Notes under the pieces: model-generated
What the model saw: only the letters and a program-made list of their open reading frames with translations
Databases searched by the model: none
What the model was told of the DNA's origin: nothing
Assembly: GCA_035316325.1 (NCBI GenBank)
Contig: DATHJB010000051.1
Span: 1 to 52,577, forward strand
Length of the DNA: 52,577 nt
Origin: Acidimicrobiales bacterium
GTDB lineage: Bacteria; Actinomycetota; Acidimicrobiia; Acidimicrobiales; VFJN01
Direction: 5' to 3'
Translations under genes and position numbers: made by a program
Shown here: one piece after another, positions 15,719-21,675 of the stretch
How positions within the stretch are numbered: the first letter of the stretch is position 1
Layout: every line of letters begins with the position of its first letter

Positions 15719-18000
<2,282 letters not shown>

Positions 18001-18003
<3 letters not shown>

Positions 18004-18165
18004 GGCGTGTCCTGTGAGTCCGGTGTGCGGATCTCCGAGTCAGGGGCGTCGCTCGGCGTGCCATCCCGACGCAGGAACCCACCAGGGTTTCAATGTCGGC
18101 ATGGTGCGGCGAGCGACGTCATCTGGCCGGAGAGGCGTGCGCCATGACTTGCAGGACACGCCCTA
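18001..18165. mobile_element. MITE-like element with about 20-bp terminal inverted repeats and TA duplication
   Basis: TAGGGCGTGTCCTGTGAGTC (18001-18020) and the reverse complement of 18146-18165 match at 18 of 20 positions. Each end carries a TA that fits a 2-bp target duplication. The 165-base element has no credible ORF. The ends and TA target resemble IS5/IS427-type elements of actinobacteria, recalled from general knowledge and not checked. It interrupts the junction of the aldolase-like and SnoaL-like genes. No autonomous transposase is in this window. Confidence 0.8.
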
Positions 18166-18201
18166 CGCGTGGCTCCCCCGGGACCGGGTAGTGCGGTGGA
18201 C

Positions 18202-18621
18202 GTGACGCCGATCGGGATCGCGCTGCGGCGCCGGCGCGACGAGGTGCTGCAGCAGCTGCTGGAGGCCCAGAACGCCGGCGACGTGACGGCCGCGCTCGAC
18301 TGCTTCACCCACCCGCGCTACGAGCTGATCGGCAACTCCCGGGTCTACGACGGCGACGACGACGTCCGGCGCTACTACGAGATGACCCGCCACTACTTCC
18401 CCGACCTGCACTTCGAGGTGATCGAGGTGCACCACGCGGCCGACGCGGTGGTCGCCGAGCTGTGGATGTCGGGCACGCACCTGGGATCGGGCCCGGACTT
18501 CGAGGCGAGCGGCAAGCGCTTCCGCTGCCGCACGGCGGTGATCTTCACCTTCGCCGACGACCTCGTAACCTGCGCCCGGGTGTACTACGACACGGGGACG
18601 ATCGCCCGCCAACTGGCCTGA
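18202..18621 (+). CDS. SnoaL-like / NTF2-fold protein
   Basis: This is a 139-residue single-domain protein of the NTF2/SnoaL superfamily: QNAGDVTAALDCFTHPRYEL at the start, then VRRYYEMTRHYFPDLHFEVIEV and FRCRTAVIFTFADDLV, the usual cone of helices and sheet. Members are small isomerases, hydrolases, dehydratases or cyclases acting on polyketide-like or steroid-like substrates, or have no enzymatic role. GTG 18202 is chosen because it would form a GTGA overlap with the aldolase-like stop if the MITE were absent; GTG 18196 is two codons earlier. The MITE now separates it from its upstream partner by 198 bases. The ADC-like gene follows after 13 bases. Confidence 0.8.
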   Translation: MTPIGIALRRRRDEVLQQLLEAQNAGDVTAALDCFTHPRYELIGNSRVYDGDDDVRRYYEMTRHYFPDLHFEVIEVHHAADAVVAELWMSGTHLGSGPDFEASGKRFRCRTAVIFTFADDLVTCARVYYDTGTIARQLA

Positions 18622-19350: not shown

Positions 19351-19401
19351 CGAAATTGCGTGGCTGGCGGTCGCCATAGGGCCGCCACGCACGCAATTTC
19401 G
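19351..19401. terminator. CGAAA-family hairpin, copy 2 (between convergent genes)
   Basis: CGAAATTGCGTGGCTGGCGG pairs with CCGCCACGCACGCAATTTCG at 17 of 20 positions around the loop TCGCCATAGG. It fills nearly the whole gap between the ADC-like stop (19345) and the SurE-like stop (19403). It is closely related to the copy at 21612-21662. Confidence 0.7.
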
Positions 19402-19402
19402 A

Positions 19403-21611: not shown

Positions 21612-21662
21612 CGAAATTGCGTGGCTGGTGGTCGCTCTAGGGCCGCCAGCCACGCAATTTCG
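21612..21662. terminator. CGAAA-family hairpin, copy 3 (between convergent genes)
   Basis: CGAAATTGCGTGGCTGGTGG pairs with CCGCCAGCCACGCAATTTCG at 19 of 20 positions (the last a G-U) around TCGCTCTAGG. It sits between the LLM stop (21606) and the stop of the methyltransferase gene (21676). It is nearly identical to copy 2. Confidence 0.72.
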
Positions 21663-21675
21663 ATCAGGACGACCG

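Follow-up and report, generated by a model that had tools for sequence, protein, structure and literature searches.

The window analysed here is a stretch of 52,577 nucleotides, contig C51 of a 6.37-Mb draft genome (244 contigs, 96.8% complete) of an Acidimicrobiales bacterium. A carboxylesterase gene, an aldolase-like gene and a SnoaL-like gene follow one another on its forward strand, and a short palindromic element lies between the last two. The features are as follows.

15719-17245, + strand: carboxylesterase gene (PF00135), with a GTGA overlap with the aldolase-like start
17242-18003, + strand: class II aldolase/adducin-like gene (PF00596), 253 codons plus stop, ending as in relatives
18001-18003, + strand: TAG stop of the aldolase-like gene, TA plus the first G of the element
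18001-18002: left TA, presumed target duplication (from the window sequence and the IS flanks)
18002-18164, + strand (the strand with the G.U-type mismatches): non-autonomous IS5-type element (palindromic MITE), 163 bp
18002-18020, + strand: left terminal arm, AGGGCGTGTCCTGTGAGTC
18146-18164, - strand: right terminal arm, reading AGGGCGTGTCCTGCAAGTC on the - strand
18164-18165: right TA, presumed target duplication (from the window sequence)
18196-18621, + strand: SnoaL-like gene (PF07366), with GTG 18196 as its likely start

For the SnoaL-like gene, GTG 18196 was preferred to GTG 18202 because relatives align from 18196. TA was seen at both outer edges of the element (18001-18002 and 18164-18165), and the sequence at 18001-18003 agrees with a TAG stop made of TA and the first G of the element, both as described in an earlier sequence-only reading. 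The inverted repeat reported by that reading is present, but its extent (20 bp flanking 125 bp) was understated, as the whole 163-165 bp self-pairs. An unrelated second palindrome of about 50 bp (GAAATTGCGTGGC...CACGCAATTTC), REP-like, occurs in the window at 19351-19402 and 21612-21663, both intergenic.

Five full copies of 163-164 bp were found at unrelated loci of this genome (C51, C80, C94, C34 and C50). They are 90-93% identical to the window copy and 93-100% identical to the C80 copy. A sixth, diverged copy lies on C160, and remnants with one end only were found in about a dozen further places. The proposal that the genome would hold other copies was thus borne out, and the five full copies have the short, non-coding, dispersed and multicopy character of a MITE. 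This genome has 11 occurrences of AGGACACGCCCTA, and 59 relatives have 6 between them; reversed as a control, the sequence occurs once here. TA on both sides, as the proposed duplication would leave, was seen in two of the five full copies (C51 and C50), and on one side or neither in the other three. TA also stands on both sides of four remnants. The remnant at C62, C126, C153 and C243 reads TA-GGACACGCCC-TA, which would be the expected product of a deletion from the left-end AGG (TAGGGCG) to the right-end AGG (CAGGACACG).

Most remnants lie at the stop codons of frames with a strong GC3 bias. Among the full copies, the stop of the flanking gene is formed at the element edge in C51, C80 and C50, and on the right side of C34. 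Single-end remnants at gene ends were recorded at L077, L080, L082-L086 and L088-L090 (C3, C29, C52, C58, C62, C126, C153, C210, C243 and C91). On C153, two convergent genes each take their TAG from their own side of one 14-bp remnant. Contig C20 breaks off partway through an end of the element (L079:9147-9165), as expected if the assembly had broken in a further copy.

The 19-base end AGGGCGTGTCCTGYGGATC matched 69 loci in genome_contigs, mostly from Actinomycetia. Among these, fifteen bounded copies measure 892-1206 bp, with most at 922-960 bp; most contain transposase frames, and most are flanked as C-TA[GGG...CCC]TA-G. Two of their transposases were scanned and matched PF13340 and PF01609, i.e. 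the IS5 type. The 19-bp terminal inverted repeat of the element is therefore also carried by IS5-type copies in other genomes. These IS5-family insertion sequences of Actinomycetota (e.g. in Actinokineospora, Egibacteraceae and Actinopolymorpha) resemble the element in their ends (GGGCSTGTCCTGYGGATC) and in their TA-flanked C-TA-G target, and several of them supply an edge TAG stop. They differ from it in being autonomous and coding, and they have no whole-length hairpin. The earlier description of a MITE that has a TA target, bears the ends of IS5-type elements and supplies a stop codon is supported.

The IS5-type transposase with the same ends that had been anticipated is present in other Actinomycetota, but none of these insertion sequences was found in this genome. 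No PF01609 protein was found in the draft (96.8% complete), and a protein query with one AGGGCGTGTCCTGYGGATC-bounded transposase, run without a positive control, gave no match there. Because no IS5-type transposase was found in this genome, we can only infer that one mobilized the element in the past. We class the element as a palindromic MITE whose ends are of the IS5 type. A mobilizer of the IS630/Tc1 type, suggested by the TA target, was dropped: the ends of the resident PF13358 elements read CTAGTGGGSTGTCGC rather than GGGCGTGTCCTG. Two resident IS630-type elements with CTAGTGGGSTGTCGC ends are 85% identical (L098:946-2031 and L099:1235-2326).

An exact scan of genome_contigs with the core of the window copy gave no match, and the wider family was then reached via the shared ends. 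Plasmids gave no match to the window copy's subfamily. Mini-hairpins of about 58 bp with the same IS5-type end were seen in Streptomyces (L113, L124, L138, L147, L158 and L168), apparently at one locus shared across several species.

A sample of 247 kb from this genome, with 165 predicted genes, contained 54 CTAGs, of which 20 fell within predicted stop codons; for TA the figure was 56 of 1955. The insertions at stop codons would follow from this, because the CTAG target often lies in stop codons here. Since the element begins with G and duplicates TA, C-TA-G would become C-TA followed by the G of the element, and TAG would be kept. At eight of the 15 bounded IS copies, too, a neighbouring frame of high GC3 is closed by a TAG at the edge of the IS, and annotated Streptomyces and Kitasatospora genes, e.g. 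wrbA and a cyanophycinase, end at the edge of related hairpins.

According to the sequence-only reading, the element trimmed the aldolase-like protein (by 13 codons as counted here) and broke an ancestral, GTGA-coupled operon. The observations behind it were confirmed. The esterase and aldolase-like genes overlap by GTGA (17242-17245), and joining 18002 to 18166 in silico gives 13 sense codons (YAWLPRDRVVRWT) and then a TGA (18203-18205) that overlaps GTG 18202 in the same way. The 13-codon open frame is however uninformative, as 37% of flank shuffles were equally open. All 29 aldolase-like orthologues (67-80% identity; same family and order, none of the same genus) are without the element and stop at the same codon (...QPDLLD or equivalent) within 0-2 residues, a result that the reading had itself named as speaking against trimming. 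Seven relatives keep the SnoaL-like neighbour; its start lies about 6-58 nt beyond the aldolase stop, and none of the seven has a GTGA overlap. Neither the extra 14 codons nor the overlap expected of relatives was seen, in the 29 orthologues or in the seven with the neighbour, and neither the longer protein nor the overlap appears ancestral at the family or order level. The joined sequence is thus a poor candidate for the ancestral operon. The distance from the aldolase stop to the SnoaL-like start is 192 nt in the window and 27 nt without the element. Relatives lack the element at the same gene boundary, all of them being from other genera, and the insertion appears to have widened the spacer from about 27 to 192 nt. 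Of the about 200 bases said to separate two coupled genes, an insert of about 165 bp in a conserved gene pair stands; the loss of translational coupling is unproven, because the GTGA overlap is not ancestral among relatives. The truncation of the protein is very improbable. For the C80 copy, an oxygenase search returned only distant homologues, their C-termini differing by a few residues.

Probably, a non-autonomous element with IS5-type ends was inserted into or next to the existing stop of the aldolase-like gene, TAG was re-created and the protein was left unchanged; the hairpin would be kept by selection, most simply as RNA. A transposase no longer detectable in the genome would have put the element into the TA of, or next to, this stop; TA and the G of the element would then have re-created TAG, so that a C-TA-G stop was kept. 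Removal of the element leaves GAC TAC, and the right flank (TACGCG) gives no stop. As TAC and not TAG or TAA follows the element, either a later one-base change on the right side or a loss of the stop just before insertion is needed. The first may be reconstructed as a TA duplication at the window copy followed by loss or change of one right-side base. In the second, the ancestral stop was lost by mutation and the insertion re-supplied one at the same place. The TAC speaks for this rescue, but it needs a positional coincidence, and relatives, the nearest available included, keep their stop there; we regard it as improbable, if somewhat less so than truncation.

The region 18001-18165 folds as one hairpin of 72 pairs, with an RNA MFE of -129.7 kcal/mol (z -14); shuffles of the element gave -70 +/- 4 kcal/mol, and 0 of 200 were as stable. 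A covariance model was built from seven copies and retrieved hairpin relatives in other genera. Most are 160-177 nt long; they form hairpins over their whole length, and their ends and apical loops differ. Two-sided changes were seen at 39 of 64 pairs across 13 sequences; covariation was 0.531, versus 0.221 for shuffled alignments and no more than 0.13 when the structure was slid. The five copies in this genome show 17 changes at paired sites, of which 16 preserve the pairing, four through double change. Embleya replicons are rich in the hairpin family, with 24 places in NZ_CP108785.1 (L227) and 13 in NZ_CP108777.1 (L230).

Mismatches between the arms are asymmetric. With one sequence per family and an alignment blind to wobble, 125 G.T were counted versus 23 A.C; the structure-aware model contributed part of this set, but the ratio is 10:0 and 15:1 in the two MITEs that had been found from sequence alone. 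In twelve plasmid copies it is about 81 G.T to 13 A.C. Whether the neighbouring gene is sense or antisense, the surplus of G.T falls on the same homologous strand. An early tally and the five own copies had suggested that the G.U strand is always sense to the upstream gene. This was overturned by annotated antisense copies, and no orientation bias is claimed. G.T far above A.C on one fixed strand, together with conserved pairing, points to RNA selection: most simply, the hairpin would be transcribed and its pairing kept by selection on RNA from that strand.

The same pattern could be left by mere debris of a palindromic transposon, with arm-to-arm correction producing the covariation and a strand bias in C to T mutation the G.T excess. 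Template switching can correct long palindromes, and the elements do bear transposon ends; arm-to-arm correction, or a constraint of the transposase on the ends, could explain part of the covariation. However, single changes among the own copies, read on the G.T strand, comprise one C to T site versus four G to A sites. Read-through transcription bias does not explain the excess either, because the G.T strand is homologous and constant in both gene orientations. We consider the debris explanation unlikely, although it is the most serious of the competing ones. A stable hairpin at gene ends would also suit a terminator or a structured intergenic RNA that does not move, but both are contradicted by dispersed copies at unrelated loci with IS5-type ends. 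Moreover, no U-tract terminator pattern was found at the element, and no Rfam 15 family reached the gathering score over the element, in its copies or in the relatives. Such an immobile feature is the least probable reading of all. The likely local effect of the insertion would be to widen the gap between two co-directional genes and to place a very stable hairpin there, with possible consequences for message processing or for downstream gene expression.

No published description of this hairpin family was found in the literature searched. Stop supply without truncation is already published for the pneumococcal BOX repeats: in Streptococcus pneumoniae, the stop codon of 36 genes is BOX-encoded, without strong evidence of truncation, and BOX repeats form transcribed stem-loops in operons (PMC3049150). 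The window element resembles BOX as a hairpin that supplies a stop without clear truncation, whereas BOX is modular, has another sequence and another proposed mobilizer and belongs to Firmicutes. Correia, ERIC, RUP and YPAL are likewise mobile hairpins of small size, and TA termini and effects on mRNA processing are recorded for some of them (PMC2229807, PMC3049150). The first three (Correia/NEMIS, ERIC and RUP) share with the element a length of about 100-160 bp, TA termini and long stem-loop transcripts; they differ in hosts and sequences, and the passages of PMC2229807 consulted do not give stop-codon targeting as a rule for them. RUP is also tied to an IS through shared ends, but that IS is of the IS630 type (PMC2229807). 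YPAL of Yersinia is a very stable, conserved, intergenic hairpin of about 168 bp like the element, but is without TA termini and has target duplications of 3-26 bp (PMC2267715, PMC2229807).

Taken more broadly, these data may, tentatively and at less than even chances, describe mobile structured RNAs that form one family in Actinomycetota: hairpins of 160-177 nt with IS5-type ends, inserted into C-TA-G so that stops are kept, and with a fold selected as one-strand RNA rather than arising as a by-product of the DNA ends. The target offers a simple mechanical reason why some transposons would enter operons without harm to the upstream protein. Stop codons account for many C-TA-G sites in a GC-rich genome, and TAG would be rebuilt from the duplicated TA by an element whose first base is G. 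Nor should an element that supplies the stop be read as a truncation without recourse to orthologues. The conserved one-strand hairpin is the part most worth following, and its G.U excess makes it a testable question whether these MITEs carry a selected RNA.
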